Assembly (NCBI RefSeq): GCF_002238045.1
Contig: NZ_NBYO01000001.1
Location: forward strand, 1,240,001-1,304,000
Length of the DNA: 64,000 nucleotides
Direction of reading: 5' to 3'
From: Notoacmeibacter marinus
GTDB taxonomy: Bacteria > Pseudomonadota > Alphaproteobacteria > Rhizobiales > Rhizobiaceae
The position numbers and the translations under genes are program-made. Positions 15,794-51,138 of the stretch are shown here, one piece after another. The notes under the pieces are model-generated. The model was not told the origin of the DNA, searched no databases, and worked only from the letters and a program-made list of their open reading frames with translations. How positions within the stretch are numbered: position 1 is the stretch's first letter; every line of letters starts with the position of its first letter.

Positions 15794-16246
15794 TCAGCCC
15801 ACCGCCCGCTGCAGGGGAGGAACCGGATCTTTCGTAAGCTCGGCCTTGATGCGTGACATCGGATCGAGGATCGCCGTTTCGATCGGAAAGAGCTGGCGGA
15901 TGCCCCGCATCGCTTCGAAGTAGCGTTTCTCATGAACCTGCTGATCGATGACCTTCAGGTCGGAAACAACCTTCTCGTTCTCGAATGCAGAAAGGAGGGA
16001 GGGCAGCAATTGCCGGTACACCGTCATCGACGCATCGATATCGCTCGGCGTCATCAGCATGAGCTGGACCACGAAATAGAGTTGTTTGAGCGGTGTGGTC
16101 GCATCCTCCGCCTGGAGAATGTGGTTCTCTAGAAGGAAGTCGACATCGTTCAGAATTTCCATCGACGTTTTACGGTCGAAGCGGATGATCGCGCCGTTGA
16201 TGTAGATCTTTTCGTTCGCCTTGAGCGAAATCTTGAATCCATTCAT
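15794..16246 (-). CDS. flbT: flagellin post-transcriptional regulator FlbT
   Basis: The 150-residue protein matches FlbT, opening with FKISLKANEKIYINGAVIR-like sequence (here GAIIRFDRKTSMEILND) and containing LLENHILQAEDATTPLKQLYF. In Caulobacter FlbT binds the 5' leader of flagellin mRNA and promotes its decay; in Brucella and other rhizobia it acts positively. Its ATG overlaps the flaF stop as ATGA. A conserved leader upstream of the flagellin genes in this window is a candidate target. Confidence 0.95.
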   Translation of the reverse strand: MNGFKISLKANEKIYINGAIIRFDRKTSMEILNDVDFLLENHILQAEDATTPLKQLYFVVQLMLMTPSDIDASMTVYRQLLPSLLSAFENEKVVSDLKVIDQQVHEKRYFEAMRGIRQLFPIETAILDPMSRIKAELTKDPVPPLQRAVG

Positions 16247-16590
16247 TTCAGACCATCCCGAATTATTCCCGTGATTTCGATCACGCCGGTGAAATTGTCG
16301 CTTCGGCCCTGGCGGATCGCATCGAGCGTTTTCAATACCCAGATGCCGATCGAGATCAGGTTGGCGCGCAGCTGCTCCGGCAACACATTCTCGTTGTCGG
16401 CAAGATCCTCCATCAGCGTCATCCAGAGGCGACTGCTGAAATGGATGGCGCGAATGGCCTCGATGGAGTTCGCGCCTTTTTCCTTGGCCTGGGCGAGAAG
16501 GTCGATGGACTGCGTCATCAGTTCCCGCTCGCGACCCCGTGCGTCGCTGAGGGATTCTTCCTGCTGGTCGATGTAGTTCGCCATATACAT
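16243..16590 (-). CDS. flaF: flagellar biosynthesis regulator FlaF
   Basis: The 115-residue helical protein matches FlaF (LDAIRQGRSDNFTGVIEITGIIRDGL at the C-terminus, in family positions, and LWMTLMEDLADNENVLP before it). In Caulobacter FlaF acts opposite to FlbT and links flagellin synthesis to secretion. The ATG at 16590 is preceded by GAGGGA at ten bases. It is paired with flbT through an ATGA overlap and follows flgL. Confidence 0.94.
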   Translation of the reverse strand: MYMANYIDQQEESLSDARGRERELMTQSIDLLAQAKEKGANSIEAIRAIHFSSRLWMTLMEDLADNENVLPEQLRANLISIGIWVLKTLDAIRQGRSDNFTGVIEITGIIRDGLK

Positions 16591-29340: not shown

Positions 29341-30216
29341 TTAGCGGAACAGCGCCAGCAGCGACTGCGAGCCGGAATTGGCCATGGACAGAGCCTGGAT
29401 GCCGAGCTGCTGCTGCGTCTGCAGAGCCTGCAGCTTGGTCGATTCCTCGGTCATATCCGCATCGACCAGCTTGCCGACGCCGCGAGCGATCGAATCCTGC
29501 AACGCACCGACGAAGTCGGACTGGATCGAGACGCGGTTCTTGGCCGAACCGATATCGGCGGCGGCTGTCGTCATGCTTTCCAGAGCCGTGTCGATGTCGG
29601 TCAGCAGGTTATCGAGATTGCCGCTCGTGACATTCATGGCAAGTACCGAGGTGCTGCTGGCCGCACCGTTGGCGCCGAGAATACCAGCCGTTGGCGTGGC
29701 CGTGCTGTCGACGAGCTGAACACCGCTCAGATCGATATCGATCGAGGTGACAGAGACCGCGCCGGTCGAATCGCGCGTGAAGGACGCAACAAGGCTCTTC
29801 GTGCCGCTATCCTTCAGCCAGTTCTCGCCCGAGAAGGATGCGCTGTCTGCGATCGACAGCAATTGCTGCTGCAATGCGCCGATTTCACTCTGAACTTTTG
29901 ATTTATCGACCCCCGGCTCCTGCGCCGCAACGATTTTGCTCTTCATTTCCTGCACCACGTCGATCGCGGAATTCATGCCCGTATAGGCGACGTCGAGCTT
30001 GGCCGCTCCAAGGCCGAGCGCATCTGTGACGGTGCCCAGCGCCTTGCTGTCGGAACGCATGGTGGTGGCGATGGACCAGTAGGCCGCGTTATCGGACGCA
30101 TCGGAGACGCGGAACCCGGTCGAGATGTTCTTCTGAGTGGCTTCGAGCGCGCTGTTGGTCGCCTGAAGGGACTTCAACGCGGTCATCGCACTCGTGTTTG
30201 TCATGAGGCTTGTCAT
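29341..30216 (-). CDS. flagellin 1
   Basis: The 291-residue flagellin has the D0/D1 ends MTSLMTNTSAMTALKSLQAT and LGIQALSMANSGSQSLLALF. A reduced centre lies between them, so the surface D2/D3 domains are essentially absent, as in rhizobial complex flagella. The start at 30216 aligns with the other flagellins; a TTG seven codons earlier does not. It is the most divergent of the five tandem copies, with unique central sequence (DSTATPTAGILGANGAASST). Its leader carries the shared motif pair. Confidence 0.96.
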   Translation of the reverse strand: MTSLMTNTSAMTALKSLQATNSALEATQKNISTGFRVSDASDNAAYWSIATTMRSDSKALGTVTDALGLGAAKLDVAYTGMNSAIDVVQEMKSKIVAAQEPGVDKSKVQSEIGALQQQLLSIADSASFSGENWLKDSGTKSLVASFTRDSTGAVSVTSIDIDLSGVQLVDSTATPTAGILGANGAASSTSVLAMNVTSGNLDNLLTDIDTALESMTTAAADIGSAKNRVSIQSDFVGALQDSIARGVGKLVDADMTEESTKLQALQTQQQLGIQALSMANSGSQSLLALFR

Positions 30217-30292
30217 ATGAATAATGCCCGTACTCAATACAATCGGGACATGCCTCGATCAAAAGGCAAGACAGACGCTCCGGCATCATGCC
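30217..30292 (-). promoter_or_regulatory. flagellin leader element, copy 1
   Basis: Read on the minus strand, GGCATGATGCC (30292-30282) is followed after 27 bases by GGCATGTCCC (30254-30245), 28 bases before the start codon. The CCCG of the second block can pair with CGGG at 30230-30227. The other copies use CCCT/AGGG here, so both partners changed together. Confidence 0.6.
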
Positions 30293-30417
30293 GGACTTCG
30301 AAAAGAAGCGCATAGCGTTCCGTCATAATGATACTCGCACGGACTTGTTTCCCTGCCGTTGAGGGAGTTGGTGAACAAAAGGAAAAAGCAGTCGCCAAAA
30401 CCTTAACGTTCCAGACG

Positions 30418-30530
30418 AAAACGGGCCGCCTCCGAAGAGGCGACCCGTGGTCGTAGGGCTATGTGCTGTGCTGCGACTTCGGATTTACCGGAAGAGCGAC
30501 AGCAGCGACTGCGAGCCGGAATTGGCCATG
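30418..30530. repeat. direct repeat: flagellin 3' end plus terminator, copy A
   Basis: About 110 bases covering the flagellin 2 terminator, 3' untranslated region and last codons recur almost unchanged at 31632-31744. Only a few single-base differences are visible. The identity extends into non-coding sequence, so it is not explained by protein constraint alone. Confidence 0.8.
30421..30448 (-). terminator. terminator of flagellin gene 2
   Basis: The minus strand reads ACGGGTCGCCTC, loop TTCG, GAGGCGGCCCGT, then TTTTCGTTT. The 12-base-pair stem contains one G-U pair, which means it is complete only in this orientation. Confidence 0.88.
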
Positions 30531-31423
30531 GATAGAGCCTGGATGCCGAGCTGCTGCTGCGTCTGCAGAGCCTGAAGCTTGGTGGACTCTTCGGTCATGT
30601 CCGCATCGACCAGCTTGCCGATGCCGCTGGAGATGGAGTCCATCAGATTGCCGATGAACTTGGTCTGCATGTCGATACGGCTCTTGCTGGAGCCGAGATC
30701 GGCCGCCGCCGTCGTCATGTCCGCCAGCGTGGTCTCCACGTTGGACAGCATACCGTCGATCACCGTGTCGTCCACATTCGTGGCCGTGATGTCGAGCGTG
30801 GCGATGGTGTAGGTGACGTTTACGGGCGTCGCAGCGCCATTGGCCGTGGTGTAGTCCTTGTTCAGCATGCCGTTATTGACCGGCGTGCCGGCGCCGTCAT
30901 TGCCGAAGAGCTTCACGTCGGAAATGTCGATCGAGATCGTGCCAATCGACACGGCGCCACTGGCGTTACGATTGAAGGACGCGACAACATCCTTCGTGGT
31001 GCCGGCGGTGTCGGTGAAGTTCAGCCAGTTCTCGCCGGAGAAGGAAGCGCTTTCGGCAATCGAAGTGAGCTGACCCTGCAGCGCCTTGATCTCGCTCTGA
31101 ACCTTGTCCTTGTCGACGCCCGGTTCCTTGGCGGCAACCAGCTTGGCCTTGATTTCATCGACGACGTCGATGGATGCGTTCATCGCCGTATAGGCCACAT
31201 CGACCTTGGCGGCTCCGAGACCGAGAGCATCTTCAACGGTGCTCAGCGCCTTGTTGTCGGAACGCATGGTGGTGGCGATGGACCAGTAAGCCGCATTGTC
31301 GGAAGCATCCGAAACACGGTAGCCGGTAGAGATGTTCTTCTGGGTCGATTCCAGCGCCGAATTGGTCATCTGGAGCGACTTCAGCGCCGTCATCGCGGCG
31401 GTATTGGTATGAATACTGGACAT
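30485..31423 (-). CDS. flagellin 2
   Basis: This is a 312-residue flagellin (MSSIHTNTAAMTALKSLQMT at the N-terminus, ALSMANSGSQSLLSLFR at the C-terminus). The central block with LFGNDGAGTPVNNGMLNKDY is shared with flagellin 5, whereas the last 75 residues (MDSISSGIGKL, SGSQ) match flagellin 3. It has its own terminator and a full leader with upstream boxes, so it can be transcribed alone. Confidence 0.97.
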   Translation of the reverse strand: MSSIHTNTAAMTALKSLQMTNSALESTQKNISTGYRVSDASDNAAYWSIATTMRSDNKALSTVEDALGLGAAKVDVAYTAMNASIDVVDEIKAKLVAAKEPGVDKDKVQSEIKALQGQLTSIAESASFSGENWLNFTDTAGTTKDVVASFNRNASGAVSIGTISIDISDVKLFGNDGAGTPVNNGMLNKDYTTANGAATPVNVTYTIATLDITATNVDDTVIDGMLSNVETTLADMTTAAADLGSSKSRIDMQTKFIGNLMDSISSGIGKLVDADMTEESTKLQALQTQQQLGIQALSMANSGSQSLLSLFR

Positions 31424-31503
31424 AAAGGGAAGTCCCTAAAATACGCGGATACAGGGACATGCCGAAAGCTCGCTTCGGCCTCGACGATCAGAGGCATCAT
31501 GCC
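31424..31503 (-). promoter_or_regulatory. flagellin leader element, copy 2
   Basis: In mRNA order: GGCATGATGCC (31503-31493), a 29-base spacer, GGCAT then GTCCCT (31463-31453), a 15-base loop, and AGGGAC (31437-31432) just before the start codon. GTCCCT and AGGGAC form a six-base-pair stem over the ribosome-binding region. Confidence 0.65.
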
Positions 31504-31525
31504 AATCGCCCAGGTTCGAGACCGG

Positions 31526-31576
31526 GACGACAACCGTCAGATGCGACTATGCCAACGAAACTCTAAAGAAGCGTAA
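31526..31576 (-). promoter_or_regulatory. flagellin upstream boxes, copy 2
   Basis: Two blocks are shared with flagellins 3 and 5 at nearly fixed distance. GACGACAACCGTC lies at 31526-31538 (103-115 bases before the start codon). CTAAAGAAGCGTAA lies at 31563-31576 (140-153 before). They read on the plus strand and are probably promoter or activator sites. Confidence 0.5.
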
Positions 31577-31631
31577 GTGCCTGCGTAATAAGGTATTAAC
31601 CGTGTCTAGACGGGTTCCACTCACCCAAACG

Positions 31632-31744
31632 AAAACGGGCCGCCTCCGAAGAGACGACCCGTGGTCGTAGGGCTGTGTGCTGTGCTGCGACTTCGAATTT
31701 ACCGGAAGAGCGACAGCAGCGACTGCGAGCCGGAATTGGCCATG
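31632..31744. repeat. direct repeat: flagellin 3' end plus terminator, copy B
   Basis: This is the second copy of the 110-base block described at 30418-30530, including terminator, 3' untranslated region and the reverse complement of the last flagellin codons. Confidence 0.8.
31635..31662 (-). terminator. terminator of flagellin gene 3
   Basis: The minus strand reads ACGGGTCGTCTC, loop TTCG, GAGGCGGCCCGT, then TTTTCGTTT. Two G-U pairs complete the 12-pair stem. It is near-identical to the terminator of flagellin 2. Confidence 0.88.
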
Positions 31745-32661
31745 GACAGAGCCTGGATGCCGAGCTGCTGCTGCGTCTGCAGGGCCTGAAGCTTGGTGGA
31801 CTCTTCGGTCATGTCCGCATCGACCAGCTTGCCGATGCCGCTGGAGATGGAGTCCATCAGATTGCCGATGAACTTGGTCTGCATGTCGATGCGGCTCTTG
31901 CTGGAGCCGAGATCGGCCGCCGCCGTCGTCATGCTATTCAGCGCGCTTTCAACACCGACGATCATGCCGTCGAGCTGGTCGTCTGTGACGGAGGTGATAT
32001 CGAGATTGTAGATCGAGACCGTGTAGGTCAACGCTGCGGTGGTCGCGCCGCCATCGCCGTCATGGTCGTAGTCGGCGAGGGTGGAGTCGAGAATGCCGCG
32101 GCCCGTTGCCGAGGCGGTGGTCCGGTCGATCGTGGCGCTGTCGAACAGTTTCGAGGAATGGACATCGACGGAAACGGTGCCGATGGATACCGCGCCCGAA
32201 CTGTCGCGGGTAAAGGAGGCAACAATTTCTTTCGTCGCGCCACTCGTCGCGTTGCTGGCCAGCCAGTTTTCGCCGGAGAAGGAAGCACTGTCGGCAATCG
32301 CCTTCAACTGCTCCTGAAGGGCTTTGACTTCGCTCTGGATCTTGCTTTTGTCGACGCCCGGTTCCTTGGCCGCGACCAGCTTCGATTTAATCTCGTCGAC
32401 CACGTCAATCGCCGATTTCGTCGCCGTATAGGCGACATCCACCTTGGCGGCGCCGAGGCCGAGCGCATCGTTGACGGTGCTCAGCGCCTTGTTGTCGGAG
32501 CGCATGGTGGTCGCGATGGACCAGTAGGCGGCGTTATCGGAGGCATCCGAAACACGGTAGCCGGTGGAGATGTTCTTCTGCGTCGATTCCAGCGCCGAAT
32601 TGGTCATCTGGAGCGCTTTCAGCGCCGTCATCGCAGCAGTATTGGTGTGAATGCTGGACAT
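31699..32661 (-). CDS. flagellin 3
   Basis: This is a 320-residue flagellin. Its centre (RTTASATGRGILDSTLADYD, then HDGDGGATTAALTYTVSIYN) is nearly identical to flagellin 4, but its C-terminal part (MDSISSGIGKL, SGSQSLLSLFR) is that of flagellin 2. It also carries ALKALQMTNS in place of ALKSLQMTNS and ATKSAIDVV where the others have AMN. It has its own leader, upstream boxes and terminator. Confidence 0.97.
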   Translation of the reverse strand: MSSIHTNTAAMTALKALQMTNSALESTQKNISTGYRVSDASDNAAYWSIATTMRSDNKALSTVNDALGLGAAKVDVAYTATKSAIDVVDEIKSKLVAAKEPGVDKSKIQSEVKALQEQLKAIADSASFSGENWLASNATSGATKEIVASFTRDSSGAVSIGTVSVDVHSSKLFDSATIDRTTASATGRGILDSTLADYDHDGDGGATTAALTYTVSIYNLDITSVTDDQLDGMIVGVESALNSMTTAAADLGSSKSRIDMQTKFIGNLMDSISSGIGKLVDADMTEESTKLQALQTQQQLGIQALSMANSGSQSLLSLFR

Positions 32662-32741
32662 AAAGAAAGGTCCCTACGAAACGCGAATACAGGGACATGC
32701 CGAACGCTGCGGTTGGGCGCGACGATCGAAGGCATCATGCC
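32662..32741 (-). promoter_or_regulatory. flagellin leader element, copy 3
   Basis: In mRNA order: GGCATGATGCC (32741-32731), 29 bases, GGCAT then GTCCCT (32701-32691), a 15-base loop, and AGGGAC (32675-32670). Spacing to the start codon is identical to copy 2. Confidence 0.65.
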
Positions 32742-32763
32742 AATCGCCAGGCCATAGGGCCAA

Positions 32764-32814
32764 GACGACAATCGTCACCGCATACTCTGATCGAAAACCT
32801 CTAAGGAAGCGTAA
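32764..32814 (-). promoter_or_regulatory. flagellin upstream boxes, copy 3
   Basis: GACGACAATCGTC at 32764-32776 and CTAAGGAAGCGTAA at 32801-32814 lie at exactly the same distances from the start codon as in copy 2, although the sequence between them is not conserved. Confidence 0.5.
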
Positions 32815-32873
32815 GTGGAGCGATAACAGCGCGTTAACCATAAAAAGGCAGTGCAATCATGCCGAAAAACGAA

Positions 32874-32899
32874 ACGGGCCGCCCTGATGGGCGGCCCGT
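32874..32899 (-). terminator. terminator of flagellin gene 4
   Basis: A perfect 11-base-pair stem (ACGGGCCGCCC / GGGCGGCCCGT) with a four-base loop is followed on the minus strand by TTCGTTTTTCGG. It lies 45 bases after the stop. Confidence 0.88.
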
Positions 32900-32943
32900 T
32901 TCCGTTGCGTGGCTGTGCGGCTGGCTCGTCCGCTCTCGCGATC

Positions 32944-33906
32944 TTACTGGAAGAGCGAGAGGAGCGACTGAGCGCCGGAATTGGCCATGGACAGAGCCTG
33001 GATGCCGAGCTGCTGCTGCGTCTGCAGCGCCTGGAGGCGTGTCGATTCTTCGGTCATATCCGCATCGACCAGCTTGCCGATGCCGCTCTTGATCGAATCC
33101 ATCAGGTTGCCGACAAATTTGGTCTGCATGTCGATCCGACTCTTGGTCGAACCGAGGCCAGCGGCTGCCGTCGTGATGCCTTCGAGCGCGCTCTCAACAC
33201 CAACGATCATGCCGTCGAGCTGGTCGTCGGTGACGGAGGTGATGTCGAGATTGTAGATCGAGACCGTGTAGGTCAGCGCCGCCGTGGTTGCGCCGCCATC
33301 GCCGTCATGGTCGTAGTCGGCGAGGGTGGAGTCGAGAATGCCGCGGCCCGTTGCCGAGGCGGTGGTCCGGTCGACCGTGGCGGTGTCGAACAGCTTGGTG
33401 GAATGGATATCCACCGCGACCGTGCCGATGGAAACAGCGCCGGAACTGTCGCGGGTAAAGGACGACACGATTTCCTTGGTGTCGCCCGAAGACGCATTGC
33501 TGGTGAGCCAGTTCTCGCTGGAGAAGGAAGCGCTACCGGCAATGGCTTTCAGCTGCTCTTGGAGCGCTTCGACCTCGCTTTGAATCTTGGTCTTGTCGAC
33601 GCCCGGTTCCTTGGCGGCGACCAGCTTCGACTTGATGTCGTCGACCACGTCGATGGCCGAGTTCATCGCCGTATAGGCCACATCGACCTTGGCGGCGCCG
33701 AGGCCGAGAGCGTCGTTGACCGTGCTGAGCGCCTTGTTGTCGGAGCGCATGGTGGTGGCGATGGACCAGTAAGCCGCATTGTCGGAAGCGTCGGAGACGC
33801 GGTAGCCGGTGGAGATGTTCTTCTGGGTCGATTCCAGTGCCGAATTGGTCATCTGGAGCGACTTCAGCGCCGTCATCGCGGCGGTATTGGTATGAATACT
33901 GGACAT
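32944..33906 (-). CDS. flagellin 4
   Basis: This is a 320-residue flagellin sharing its central block with flagellin 3 (GRGILDSTLADYDHDGDGG). Its 3' part (GLGSTKSRIDMQTKFVGNL, MDSIKSGIGKL, SGAQSLLSLFQ) matches flagellin 5. The ends are the usual D0/D1 coiled coils. It has its own leader and terminator. The upstream boxes seen at copies 2, 3 and 5 are not clear here. Confidence 0.97.
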   Translation of the reverse strand: MSSIHTNTAAMTALKSLQMTNSALESTQKNISTGYRVSDASDNAAYWSIATTMRSDNKALSTVNDALGLGAAKVDVAYTAMNSAIDVVDDIKSKLVAAKEPGVDKTKIQSEVEALQEQLKAIAGSASFSSENWLTSNASSGDTKEIVSSFTRDSSGAVSIGTVAVDIHSTKLFDTATVDRTTASATGRGILDSTLADYDHDGDGGATTAALTYTVSIYNLDITSVTDDQLDGMIVGVESALEGITTAAAGLGSTKSRIDMQTKFVGNLMDSIKSGIGKLVDADMTEESTRLQALQTQQQLGIQALSMANSGAQSLLSLFQ

Positions 33907-33979
33907 AGAAAGGTCCCTGGGGTTCGGCCATAAAGGGACATGCCAATCGGAAGAGGCGGGGCAACCCTGGCATCATGCC
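33907..33979 (-). promoter_or_regulatory. flagellin leader element, copy 4
   Basis: In mRNA order: GGCATGATGCC (33979-33969), 24 bases, GGCAT then GTCCCT (33944-33934), a 15-base loop, and AGGGAC (33918-33913). The loop sequence differs from copies 2 and 3 while the stem is unchanged. Confidence 0.65.
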
Positions 33980-34043
33980 GGTCACATCTGTTTGACGTGA
34001 TAGTCGCCGTCTTGCGCACTCCTCGTCGCCGAGGTTTGCATCG

Positions 34044-34070
34044 GATGGTCGCCGCCTAACGGCGACCATC
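34044..34070 (-). terminator. hairpin downstream of flagellin gene 5
   Basis: A perfect 11-base-pair stem (GATGGTCGCCG / CGGCGACCATC) with a five-base loop lies 28 bases after the flagellin 5 stop. No T run follows, so it may stabilise the 3' end rather than terminate strongly. Confidence 0.6.
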
Positions 34071-34097
34071 GCTTATTTCCGTTCGTTCAACCCGGCC

Positions 34098-35036
34098 TTA
34101 CTGGAAGAGCGAGAGAAGCGACTGGGCGCCGGAATTGGCCATGGACAGAGCCTGGATGCCGAGCTGCTGCTGCGTCTGCAGGGCCTGAAGCTTCGTCGAC
34201 TCTTCGGTCATGTCCGCATCGACCAGCTTGCCGATGCCGCTCTTGATCGAATCCATCAGATTGCCGACGAATTTGGTCTGCATGTCGATGCGGCTCTTGC
34301 TGGAGCCGAGGCCCGCAGCTGCCGTCGTCATGTCCTCCAGCGTGGTCTCCACGTTGGAGAGCATGCCGTCGATCACCGTGTCGTCCACATTCGTGGCCGT
34401 GATGTCCAGCGTGGCGATGGTGTAGGTCACGTTGACGGGCGTACCCGCACCGTTAGCCGTTGTGTAGTCCTTGTTCAGCATGCCGTTATTGACCGGCGTG
34501 CCGGCGCCGTCATTGCCGAAGAGTTTCATGTCGGAAATATCGATGGCGATGGTGCCGATGGAAACGGCGCCCGCACCGGTGCGGGTGAACGAGGCCACGA
34601 CTTCCTTCGTCGTGCCGCTTGTGTCGGTGAATGTGAGCCAGTTCTCTCCGGAAAAGGAGGCACTCTCCGCAATGGCCGTCAACTGGCCCTGCAGCGCGGT
34701 GATCTCGCTCTGGATCTTTTCCTTGTCGACGCCAGGCTCTCTGGCCGCAACCAGCTTGGTCTTGATGTCGTCGACGACTTCGATGGCCGAGTTCATGGCG
34801 GTGTAGGCCACGTCAACCTTTGCGGCGCCGAGGCCGAGCGCATCGTTGACCGTGCTGAGCGCCTTGTTGTCCGAGCGCATGGTGGTGGCGATGGACCAGT
34901 AAGCCGCATTGTCGGAGGCATCGGAAACGCGGTAGCCGGTGGAGATGTTCTTCTGCGTCGATTCCAGCGCCGAATTGGTCATCTGGAGCGACTTGAGCGC
35001 CGTCATCGCGGCGGTATTGGTATGAATACTGGACAT
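34098..35036 (-). CDS. flagellin 5
   Basis: This is a 312-residue flagellin. The centre (LFGNDGAGTPVNNGMLNKDY, ATNVDDTVIDGMLSNVETTL) is that of flagellin 2, and the C-terminus (MDSIKSGIGKL, SGAQSLLSLFQ) is that of flagellin 4. It is the first copy of the tandem array in transcription direction, about 200 bases downstream of the fliP stop, with leader and upstream boxes. Confidence 0.97.
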   Translation of the reverse strand: MSSIHTNTAAMTALKSLQMTNSALESTQKNISTGYRVSDASDNAAYWSIATTMRSDNKALSTVNDALGLGAAKVDVAYTAMNSAIEVVDDIKTKLVAAREPGVDKEKIQSEITALQGQLTAIAESASFSGENWLTFTDTSGTTKEVVASFTRTGAGAVSIGTIAIDISDMKLFGNDGAGTPVNNGMLNKDYTTANGAGTPVNVTYTIATLDITATNVDDTVIDGMLSNVETTLEDMTTAAAGLGSSKSRIDMQTKFVGNLMDSIKSGIGKLVDADMTEESTKLQALQTQQQLGIQALSMANSGAQSLLSLFQ

Positions 35037-35112
35037 TGAAAGAGGTCCCTAGGGTAAGCCGTACAGGGACATGCCGAATTGTAGTAGGCCGGACGATCAA
35101 GGGCATCATGCC
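35037..35112 (-). promoter_or_regulatory. flagellin leader element, copy 5
   Basis: In mRNA order: GGCATGATGCC (35112-35102), 26 bases, GGCAT then GTCCCT (35075-35065), a 14-base loop, and AGGGAC (35050-35045). Confidence 0.65.
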
Positions 35113-35135
35113 GATCGCCAAGCCGGGTCTGGCCG

Positions 35136-35186
35136 GGCGATAATCGTCAGGACCGACAATCGTCGAAAATGGCTAATGAAGCGTAA
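35136..35186 (-). promoter_or_regulatory. flagellin upstream boxes, copy 5
   Basis: GGGCGATAATCGTC around 35135-35148 and CTAATGAAGCGTAA at 35173-35186 occupy the positions of the boxes at copies 2 and 3, shifted by three bases. An extra GACAATCGTC lies at 35155-35164. Confidence 0.5.
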
Positions 35187-35242
35187 CCGAAACGCTAACA
35201 AACGGTAAATGCTGGCGTTTCCCGGGCGCTGATTACAGCGTG

Positions 35243-36142
35243 CTAAGCGAAGGACCGCACCATCGAGCCGACCAGAAGGTTCCAGCCATCGATCAGCACG
35301 AAGAACAACACCTTCAGCGGCAGGGATAGCACGGTCGGCGGAAGCATCATCATCCCCATGGCCATCGTAATCGTCGAGACCACCAGATCGATCACCAGAA
35401 ACGGCAGCACCACGAGAAACCCGATCTCGAAGGCGCGTCGCAGTTCGGAAATCATGAAGGCGGGGATTAGGATACTGTAGGCGACCGTCTCCTCCTGCGC
35501 AGACGCTGCGGAAGCATCGTCGGCGATCGGCTGAACGCCGGCTCCGACGCCGATCAAGGAATCATCCCCTTCGGTCTGCGGGCTGCCGGGTGCAGGCGAC
35601 GGCGTATTCGGCTGCGCGGGCACTTCGGCCTCATCGTCCCCTGCCGCCGGCGCCGGCGAAAGATCGGCGAAGAGCCGCAGATCGGTATCGCGCACATTGG
35701 CCAGCATGAACTGGCGGAAGGGTTCGGCCGTCTTCCGGAAGCCTTCCTCCTGGCCGACCTCGTTGCGCATCATCGGCCCGAGACCCTCATTCCACGCCTT
35801 GTCGATCACGGGATCCATCACATACCAGGTCATGAACAGCGCCAGACTGACAAGGATGAGGTTTGCCGGCGTCGTTTGTAGGCCCAAACCCGATCGCATG
35901 ATCGAGAACACCACAATGAAGCGCGTGAAGCTGGTAACGGAGATGAGAATGCCGGGCGCCAGAGACAGGACGGTGAGCAGTCCGAAAAGCTGGACGATAT
36001 AGCCGGCGGTCTGCCCATCCGCCGCCTCTCCCGGTTGCAGAAGGGCCGGCAGTTGCAGCCCCTGCGCCATGGCCGGTTCGGCTGCTGCGAACAGCAGCGT
36101 CGCCGCACCGACCAGGCCAGTCATTGCAGCAGCGCGTATCAT
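35243..36142 (-). CDS. fliP: flagellar export gate protein FliP with an internal insertion
   Basis: FliP forms the export-gate core. Seen are a signal sequence ending AEPAMAQG, PGILISVTSFTRFIVVFSIM, LALFMTWYVMDPVIDKAWNE and the C-terminal ISELRRAFEIGFLVVLPFLV, IDLVVSTITMAMGMMMLPPT and DGWNLLVGSM. The protein has 299 residues against about 245 in Escherichia coli. The excess is a P/A/D/E-rich segment of about 50 residues (163-218), just before YSILIPAFMISELRRAF. The start overlaps the fliL stop. Confidence 0.95.
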   Translation of the reverse strand: MIRAAAMTGLVGAATLLFAAAEPAMAQGLQLPALLQPGEAADGQTAGYIVQLFGLLTVLSLAPGILISVTSFTRFIVVFSIMRSGLGLQTTPANLILVSLALFMTWYVMDPVIDKAWNEGLGPMMRNEVGQEEGFRKTAEPFRQFMLANVRDTDLRLFADLSPAPAAGDDEAEVPAQPNTPSPAPGSPQTEGDDSLIGVGAGVQPIADDASAASAQEETVAYSILIPAFMISELRRAFEIGFLVVLPFLVIDLVVSTITMAMGMMMLPPTVLSLPLKVLFFVLIDGWNLLVGSMVRSFA

Positions 36143-50048: not shown

Positions 50049-50981
50049 TTAGCCCTGGAAGAGGGCCAGAATGTTCTGGGCCGAGGCGTTGGCAATCGAC
50101 AGGGACTGCACGCCGAGCTGCTGCTGCGTCTGCAGAGCCTGAAGGCGGGTGGATTCTTCGCTCATATCCGCGTCGATCAAAGCGGAGATGCCGCGCGTCA
50201 TCGCATCGATCAGGGTGGCCACGAAGTCGGTCTGCATGGAGAGGCGGCTTTTCATCGCGCCAAGATCTGACGCGCCATTCGTCAGATCGGTAAAGGCGCT
50301 GTGAACGAAATCGATCATGTCATCGATCGTCGCATCCGTGACGTTCGCCGCCGTGATGTCCAGTGTGAGAATCGAGAAGGTTACCGCGGTCGCACCTGTG
50401 CCGGAAGTCGTGGTCTTCTCCAGAAGGCCATCTGCACCCACCGCCGGATTGCCGTCCATCAGGGCGAGCGTGCTGATATCGATATCGATCGTGTCGACCG
50501 TGACGGCACTGCCCGTGCGGTTAAAGGATGAGACGATCTCTTCTGTCGACGAATAACCGGCGTTAGCCGAATTCACGTTAAGCCAGTTTTCGCCGGAAAA
50601 GCTTGCCGATTCGGCAATGCCGACCAGCTGCTCCTGCAACTGTTTGATCTCGTCCTGGATTTTTTCCTTGTCGACACCGGGTTCCCGGGCCGCAACCAGC
50701 TTCGACTTGATCGAATCGACAACATCGATGGCGGAATTGATTGCCGTATACGTGACGTCGATCTTTGCGGTGCCGAGCCCGAGCGCGTCCTGAACCGTGG
50801 AAAGTGCCGCCTTGTCCGACTTCATGACGGTCGCGATGGACCAATAGGCGGCATTGTCGGCCGCTTCGGCCACCCGATAGCCGGTCGAGATGCGTTTTTG
50901 CGTATCTTCCAGCGCCTTATTGGTCGTTTCCAGGGTGCGCAGCGCTACCATGGCTGCAGAGTTGGTTCTGATACTTGTCAT
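50049..50981 (-). CDS. flagellin 6 (separate, divergent copy)
   Basis: The 310-residue flagellin lies outside the tandem array. Its ends are MTSIRTNSAAMVALRTLETT and LGVQSLSIANASAQNILALF. The centre is distinct (LALMDGNPAVGADGLLEKTT). It differs from flagellins 1-5 throughout, suggesting an old paralogue rather than a recent duplicate. The ATG at 50981 aligns with the other flagellins; an upstream start would add seven residues. Confidence 0.96.
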   Translation of the reverse strand: MTSIRTNSAAMVALRTLETTNKALEDTQKRISTGYRVAEAADNAAYWSIATVMKSDKAALSTVQDALGLGTAKIDVTYTAINSAIDVVDSIKSKLVAAREPGVDKEKIQDEIKQLQEQLVGIAESASFSGENWLNVNSANAGYSSTEEIVSSFNRTGSAVTVDTIDIDISTLALMDGNPAVGADGLLEKTTTSGTGATAVTFSILTLDITAANVTDATIDDMIDFVHSAFTDLTNGASDLGAMKSRLSMQTDFVATLIDAMTRGISALIDADMSEESTRLQALQTQQQLGVQSLSIANASAQNILALFQG

Positions 50982-51066
50982 TGTAGCAGTTCTCTTTGGC
51001 ACCGCTTCGGCGCGTTTCGTTCAGGACATGCTGGTCCATCCAGCTTCCACCGGGTGGCATCATGCC
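50982..51066 (-). promoter_or_regulatory. flagellin leader element, copy 6 (diverged)
   Basis: GGCATGATGCC is perfect at 51066-51056, and a diverged second block, AGCATGTCCT (51032-51023), follows after 23 bases. The GTCCCT/AGGGAC pairing of the tandem copies is lost here; a GCGCC/GGTGC hairpin is possible instead. Confidence 0.45.
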
Positions 51067-51138
51067 GGCGTCTGATTCGGCAACGGCACATGCCGTTCGT
51101 ATCAAGCTATTGGAGCAACCTTGCGCGAAGCGTGCGGT

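Follow-up and report, generated by a model that had tools for sequence, protein, structure and literature searches.

Background

What do the five tandem flagellin genes of Notoacmeibacter marinus share in front of their start codons, and what reads it? The window analysed here, a stretch of 64,000 nucleotides (nt) from the 3.29 Mb genome of this bacterium (assembly GCF_002238045.1, contig NZ_NBYO01000001.1, positions 1,240,001 to 1,304,000), contains a flagellar cluster with five tandem flagellin genes on the minus strand, a sixth flagellin gene at 50.0-51.0 kb, and the genes for FlbT and FlaF. An earlier reading of the window (hereafter the original prediction) described a conserved RNA leader before the flagellin genes and proposed it as a translational control element, possibly the target of FlbT. 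Here, we present a comparative analysis of this leader, including covariance-model searches of the order Hyphomicrobiales and of the surrounding class, and a survey of FlbT in the same genomes.

The leader folds into three hairpins, P1, P2 and P3, the last of which covers the Shine-Dalgarno (SD) region. From comparative sequence data, we consider it likely that this is an OFF-by-default translational switch in flagellin messenger RNA (mRNA), with P3 lying on the SD and being opened by FlbT of one of two clades (clade A) via P1 and P2. The covarying element, the SD hairpin and the matching FlbT clade together make the FlbT-flagellin mechanism directly testable.

Structure and covariation of the leader

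Among relatives, P1 has the form GGC-AUGAN-GCC. Its stem is compensated (G-C to A-U or U-A). Apart from a few exceptions, among them three sequences with AUCA, the loop begins with AUGA, and its last base is free to be T, A, C or G. P2 has the consensus GCCGG..CCGGC, with many compensated variants and a nearly invariant AUG at its end. P3 consists of GUCCC..GGGAC or GGGGC, and its stem variants, such as GUUCC/GGAAC and GUCUU/AAGAC, keep the ribosome site covered. The covariation that had been noted for copy 1 of the window extends well beyond it. Across 75 distinct sequences, 7 of 14 pairs were doubly changed (30 such cells vs 4.7 in shuffles), and across 144 distinct sequences this rose to 11 of 13 pairs (92 cells vs 19.0). 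In the larger set, 96.8% of cells were paired compared with 26-58% in slid controls, a fraction inflated by the fitting of both alignments (A4 and A5) to the model, with P1, P2 and the 5' arm of P3 anchored by conserved AUG letters. For P3 the corresponding figures were 98.6% of cells paired and 4 of 5 pairs doubly changed. On this comparative evidence, the existence of the three-hairpin structure is near certain.

The original prediction had recognised two sequence blocks and the P3 stem, all of which are real, and had overlooked the third hairpin, P2, which uses the GGCAT of block 2. It had also suggested that block 1 could pair with block 2; this pairing was possible in 91.7% of cells of the 75 distinct sequences, yet it showed 0 compensated cells and no excess over shuffles, and it is abandoned here. 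In the window, the flagellin genes and their leaders are as follows.

29341..30216, minus strand: flagellin 1 (PF00669, 1.3e-32)
30485..31423, minus strand: flagellin 2 (PF00669, 4.1e-32)
31699..32661, minus strand: flagellin 3 (PF00669, 4.9e-31)
32944..33906, minus strand: flagellin 4 (PF00669, 1.3e-30)
34098..35036, minus strand: flagellin 5 (PF00669, 2.9e-32; PF00700)
50049..50981, minus strand: flagellin 6, outside the tandem array (PF00669, 1.9e-32)
30226..30298, minus strand: leader of flagellin 1, start codon 30216; P1 30282-30292, P2 GCCUU..GAGGC, P3 as CCCG/CGGG
31432..31509, minus strand: leader of flagellin 2, start codon 31423; P1 31493-31503, P2 GCCGAA..TTCGGC, GTCCC 31454-31458, AGGGAC 31432-31437
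32670..32747, minus strand: leader of flagellin 3, start codon 32661; P1 32731-32741, GTCCC 32692-32696, AGGGAC 32670-32675
33913..33985, minus strand: leader of flagellin 4, start codon 33906; P1 33969-33979, GTCCC 33935-33939, AGGGAC 33913-33918
35045..35118, minus strand: leader of flagellin 5 (match to covariance model R2), start codon 35036; P1 block 35102-35112, block 2 GGCAT 35071-35075, GTCCC 35066-35070, AGGGAC 35045-35050
50999..51072, minus strand: leader of the distant sixth flagellin (33.9 bits), start codon 50981; P1 51056-51066, P2 GCTGG..CCAGC (a compensated variant), AUGUCC kept, standard P3 missing

The tandem leaders are about 75 nt long and end 6-9 nt short of the start codon, and the spacers of 24-29 nt, the loops of 13-15 nt and the CCCG/CGGG stem of copy 1 are all as first described. 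Block 1, GGCATGATGCC, is exact in all five and again upstream of the sixth flagellin (51056-51066). Allowing up to one mismatch, it has 14 matches (each of the six exact sites being counted also on the opposite strand) vs 2.66 expected and a maximum of 7 among 100 shuffles. The combination GGCATGATGCC-N{10,38}-GGCATGTCCC occurs exactly five times in the whole 3.29 Mb genome, in every case in a tandem leader, and its backward reading occurs 0 times. For copy 1, the start codon is most likely ATG 30216 (MTSLMTNTSAMTAL), 9 nt past its P3, and not the mechanically listed TTG 30237. Six leaders had been proposed; among the five tandem ones P2 is clear in copies 1-3 and weak in the other two, and the sixth has P1 and P2 without a standard P3, so that this flagellin may escape SD locking.

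Upstream of three of the leaders (31500-31610, 32740-32850 and 35110-35190), a common TTACGCTTC.TTAG and a GACG.TTGTCG-like region were seen by eye, which may represent a promoter or a CtrA-like site.

Position relative to the ribosome site

A conserved helix lies over the SD. Among 134 distinct flagellin leaders, 126 have their best anti-SD match overlapping the 3' arm of P3 by at least 3 nt, and 117 have a gap of 5-9 nt between P3 and the start codon. The leader is also tied closely to flagellin genes. Of the 77 first-round matches, 73 were followed by a flagellin at E<1e-5, and the other four preceded a divergent flagellin (2.9e-5), a flagellin that appeared frameshifted by eye, and two other genes. 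The second round gave 148 matches, 137 of them directly before a flagellin; five of the other 11 were at locus edges and six did not directly precede one. With this covariation, placement and flagellin co-location, the view of the leader as a conserved translational control element over the ribosome-binding region is well supported.

Upstream open reading frames (ORFs) were considered and set aside. The frames of the two conserved AUGs, in the P1 loop and at the junction, are spread over all three (56/38/36 and 50/39/39, respectively) and are not fixed, and therefore there is no conserved upstream ORF.

Occurrence among genomes

The models were built from a pattern scan of GTDB genomes, which gave 105 stretches, of which 80 loci were listed, holding 84 matches. 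Of these matches, 43 preceded flagellin-like ORFs (25 by script, 18 by eye), one was cut off, two stood before other genes with the structure kept and 38 were deemed chance. The other 25 loci held 27 matches, 12 of them before flagellin-like starts by eye, and were not used in the models. First-round sources were 41 of the 80 loci plus the window, L012 and L018. The second-round search used 96 sources, with 60 regions hand-picked among the matches listed in the order-wide scan; from L163-L192, L167, L169, L177, L180 and L191 were omitted as overlapping or of genera already represented. Alignment A1 (mixed strands) was discarded and A2 was superseded by the trimmed A3.

The covariance-model search of the order that had been suggested as a check gave matches at E<=0.005 in 132 of 397 genomes, representing 50 of 142 genera. 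Some of the weak matches must be chance, and one matching genome (G050) shows no flagellin. The leader stands before flagellins in Agrobacterium tumefaciens, A. rubi, Neorhizobium, Rhizobium, Mesorhizobium, Hyphomicrobium, Xanthobacter, Chelatococcus, Ahrensia, Hoeflea, Nitratireductor and Notoacmeibacter, including a Notoacmeibacter locus (L048) whose flagellins are the most like those of the window among first-round loci. Within the own family, 20 of 21 genomes match. In the exception, the small genome G373, a stop interrupts two flagellin copies, flbT is no longer intact and the leader, still at 25.7 bits, has decayed (L268), a case of joint decay of the system.

Across the class, 40 of 289 genomes (the own genome included) match at E<=0.05. 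Twenty-nine loci fetched from the class-scan matches outside the order (L136 included) were searched in six frames and held no flagellin, and an unfiltered search with R2 of 29 class flagellin loci outside the order reached at most 14.1 bits. That best match (L385:1429-1502) lies directly before an out-of-order flagellin and contains the hairpin AUAUGGC-AUGAA-GCCGUAU, maybe a distant P1; it is a weak result against strict confinement of the leader to the order.

FlbT and the leader

The window encodes FlbT and FlaF next to each other, and Pfam bears out the placement of flaF-flbT at 15.8-16.6 kb.

15794..16246, minus strand: FlbT (PF07378, 2.3e-40), clade A (split 100/100), proposed partner of the leader
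16243..16590, minus strand: FlaF (PF07309, 1.6e-30), adjoining flbT

FlbT is thus encoded in the same genome as the leader, and this association recurs. In a survey covering 80 of the 132 leader-bearing genomes, FlbT was found in 79, the one miss being 86% complete, and in all 75 genomes of at least 90% completeness. In a sample of 57 genomes spanning 52 families of the order, FlbT was found in 36. The 37 FlbT sequences fall into two groups, 11 from leader systems (clade A) and 26 from systems without the leader (clade B), split at 100/100 in a bootstrap that had yet to settle completely; one of the 26 clade-B rows is a short, long-branched fragment. The clade-B label denotes FlbT presence together with no R2 match, an absence that for some genomes rests on a filtered scan. 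Among the 80 leader-bearing genomes surveyed, FlbT matches occur twice in 26 (and three times in one more). In ten of these 26, the copy 12-28 kb from the leader was clade A in 10/10 and the other copy clade B in 10/10. By correlation, these results agree with the proposal that the leader is a FlbT target.

Flagellin leaders of the clade-B type carry a different feature. An upstream AG(G/A)A site is present in 15 of 20, with a stem of at least 4 base pairs (bp) in 13 of 20 (17% in controls, which were single-base shuffles), and a site near the SD in 18 of 20, the stem of which reaches 4 bp or more in nine cases. In the scan of 22 loci no such leader was found in L326, L334 and L342, and flagellins without an R2 leader do not all show AG(G/A)A sites (e.g. 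L253, L254, L263). The loci L323-L341, L320 and L321 often have two AG(G/A)A hairpin-loop sites separated by about 30 nt, of which the second falls on the SD. Such paired sites may form a second leader class, which would recall the dual sites of CsrA.

FlbT itself, as viewed for the window protein and L304, has an N-terminal five-strand domain whose motif KPGERIIIGDSV and strand order resemble those of CsrA, followed by a helical C-terminal part. Homology with CsrA was not supported statistically: for clade B, hhalign returned 12 columns at 8%, and for clade A 10 columns at 0.7%, Foldseek gave no match at E<=0.001, and no CsrA was among the best 50 rows for either model. A sequence search of FlbT against solved structures returned nothing below E 0.7.

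Proposed mechanism and alternatives

In the mechanism we propose, P3, which in most leaders ends 5-9 nt from the start codon, pairs with the SD region and would thereby keep translation off by default. P1, with its AUGA loop, and P2, with the adjoining AUG, would form a protein-binding platform, as suggested by conserved loop letters over changing stems. Clade-A FlbT of the same cluster would bind this platform and open P3 when flagellin is wanted, with FlaF possibly modulating its action. Co-occurrence, linkage and published activator phenotypes indicate that FlbT is probably the partner and activation the direction of control; activation fits this leader because the SD is locked away.

Several observations weigh against this mechanism. 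The FlbT clade and the leader may be merely co-inherited with the whole flagellar system, and Caulobacter FlbT is reported as a repressor (PMC4347634, in the part available to us). P2 is weak in copies 4 and 5 of the window, the sixth flagellin leader lacks a standard P3 though P1 and the compensated P2 are kept, and in 8 of 134 leaders the best SD match lies elsewhere than the 3' arm of P3. Furthermore, the structure guided the fitting of alignments A4 and A5, and exact blocks served to select the search seeds. Fold energies are ordinary, with z between -1.53 and +0.32 in the window's six leaders and averaging -0.7 over the 144 distinct leaders, and because energies alone are unremarkable the case rests on covariation and position.

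The leader could be a real translational switch worked by another trans-acting factor, such as a small RNA, FlaF, flagellin or another RNA-binding protein, with FlbT tracking it as a member of the same system. Co-inheritance confounds the FlbT correlations, and FlaF adjoins flbT in the window, both genes having also been found in an Agrobacterium fabrum motility screen (PMC9812332, as far as the accessible part reports). We nevertheless judge it unlikely, as FlbT is the factor named in the accessible literature as acting on the flagellin leaders of this class, no search for others having been made, and none of the 10 Hyphomicrobiales genomes sampled (the own genome and nine others) has CsrA.

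We regard it as improbable that the leader acts chiefly on mRNA stability, or serves as an RNase or standby site, instead of working as a switch at the ribosome site. This explanation would suit the statement that FlbT binding promotes flagellin mRNA decay in Caulobacter (PMC4347634, seen in part), and also the sixth flagellin and two other genes, before which P1 and P2 persist although a standard P3 is lacking; against it stand the narrow spacing to the start codon and the finding that the best SD match falls on the P3 3' arm in 126 of 134 leaders, stem changes tracking the changes there.

Two further explanations receive hardly any credence from us. Conservation of blocks 1 and 2 might instead reflect a role in transcription, as operator or promoter elements in the DNA, since GGCATGATGCC reads almost as a palindrome in DNA and does not vary across the window, but relatives have an AUGAN loop with a free last base over a stem changing from G-C to A-U or U-A, P2 and P3 covary and the distance to the start codon is kept. 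A palindromic DNA operator in particular was disfavoured, with columns 10 and 14 unpaired in 13 of 75 distinct sequences and the AUGAN loop asymmetric. Finally, P3 as an RNA thermometer or passive SD hairpin without a protein partner would account for a short stem over the SD, but would leave P1 and P2, kept as well as P3, and a nearly invariant AUGA loop without a role, and is barely credible.

Beyond the FlbT-opened switch, we tentatively advance a broader proposal, about which we have rather more doubt than confidence. Two ancient FlbT clades would read two leader codes, clade A an AUGA-loop, SD-locked leader with an ON outcome and clade B paired AG(G/A)A-loop hairpins, one of them containing the SD, with an OFF outcome, and the clade-A type of leader would extend to some chemoreceptor genes. 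If true, RNA architecture, and not the protein alone, would set the sign of control. This would account for the reports of FlbT as an activator in Brucella and Bradyrhizobium but as a repressor in Caulobacter, and in a group that lacks CsrA, FlbT would take the place of a CsrA-like regulator of flagellin.

Other genes carrying the leader

The leader was also seen 9-10 nt before a HAMP-domain gene that is cut off (L207:250-323) and before a HAMP/MCP chemoreceptor gene (L247:206-280), in two genomes of one genus. In another genome (L241:206-265) it lies 176 nt upstream of an MCP gene. These chemoreceptor-linked copies suggest a wider late-motility regulon, and since a few chemoreceptor genes carry it, the leader may mark other late motility genes. 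In three further cases (L215:221-291, L216:1300-1368 and L242:202-279) the ORF that follows, at a distance of 230-386 nt, has no Pfam match, and the L215 and L216 ORFs have similar N-termini (MVI.Y.NSKWSM..RLALI). P1 and P2 without a standard P3 occur before a GGDEF-EAL gene in Brucella endophytica (L060:5857-5927) and before a GAF/PAS gene in Microvirga lupini (L094:3176-3247).

Comparison with known systems

The element was compared with known RNA families and regulators. In Rfam 15, the only hit in the window at gathering score was a tRNA, with no family at the leaders, and a loose search of 30000-35400 gave eight hits (best E 0.21), none on a leader. A family of similar kind is RF01736, flg-Rhizobiales (Weinberg 2010, seen in part), also a three-hairpin cis-regulatory RNA before flagellar genes of Rhizobiales. 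It differs in sitting at a flgF-like rod gene (by eye), in its UUGGGAGA hairpins and in its 141 positions. Identity with this family was rejected: the best score in the own genome was 18.4 bits vs a gathering cut-off of 55 bits, on contigs other than those of the leaders; 0 of 61 own-family genomes matched in a filtered search; and eight leader loci gave 0 matches at E<=1, with 103.5 bits for the positive control L025. The RF01736 matches in L025-L027 run into rod-gene-like ORFs (by eye), whereas the leaders precede flagellins.

Elsewhere, CsrA is the usual regulator of flagellin leaders, acting with FliW in Bacillus and Campylobacter. The likeness to CsrA/FliW is that flagellin translation is under protein control and coupled to assembly; the difference is that the conserved loop here is AUGAN, not GGA. 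CsrA is described as recognising GGA in loops (PMC4894983, seen in part). The leader was rejected as a CsrA target, the P1 loop being AUGAN, the P2 and P3 loops varying, GGA occurring in one of them (AUGGA, in the sixth window leader) and CsrA itself being missing from the own genome and the nine others sampled.

The closest functional parallels are the reported cases of FlbT control. In Caulobacter crescentus, FlbT is reported to act on the fljK leader (PMC3930126 and PMC4347634, citing Anderson and Gober 2000; both seen in part). The shared features are post-transcriptional action at the 5' leader of flagellin mRNA and a FlbT encoded in the flagellar cluster; the reported outcome there is repression, and the comparison with Caulobacter is based on its published description. 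The parallel drawn originally with Caulobacter calls for caution: 26 of the 37 sampled FlbT rows belong to the other clade, with other leaders, 13 of the 20 examined having an upstream AG(G/A)A-loop stem, and the reported sign of FlbT control in Caulobacter is opposite to that in Brucella and Bradyrhizobium.

For Brucella, the available part of PMC4347634 presents FlbT as a proposed activator and calls the mechanism of FlbT control unresolved, and for Bradyrhizobium, FlbT is reported to induce LafA1 and LafA2 translationally (PMC8429497, likewise seen in part). The underlying studies on Brucella FliC and on LafA1/LafA2 are Ferooz 2011 and Mongiardini 2017, as cited in the accessible parts of PMC4347634, PMC9812332 and PMC8429497. 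Here the likeness is translational activation by FlbT; the RNA element is not described in the portions of these accounts available to us, on whose descriptions the comparison is based. A Bradyrhizobium-like genome (G035) encodes a clade-A FlbT and has the leader described here upstream of two flagellins of the same gene region.

Literature searches on the sequence blocks, FlbT and flagellin leaders, covering openly accessible text in part and no subscription papers, did not find a published description of the element. We place it as a new leader class within known FlbT-type control. It offers a reason for the opposite reported signs of this control, and it provides an annotation model for flagellin leaders in rhizobia, agrobacteria, Hyphomicrobium and relatives.

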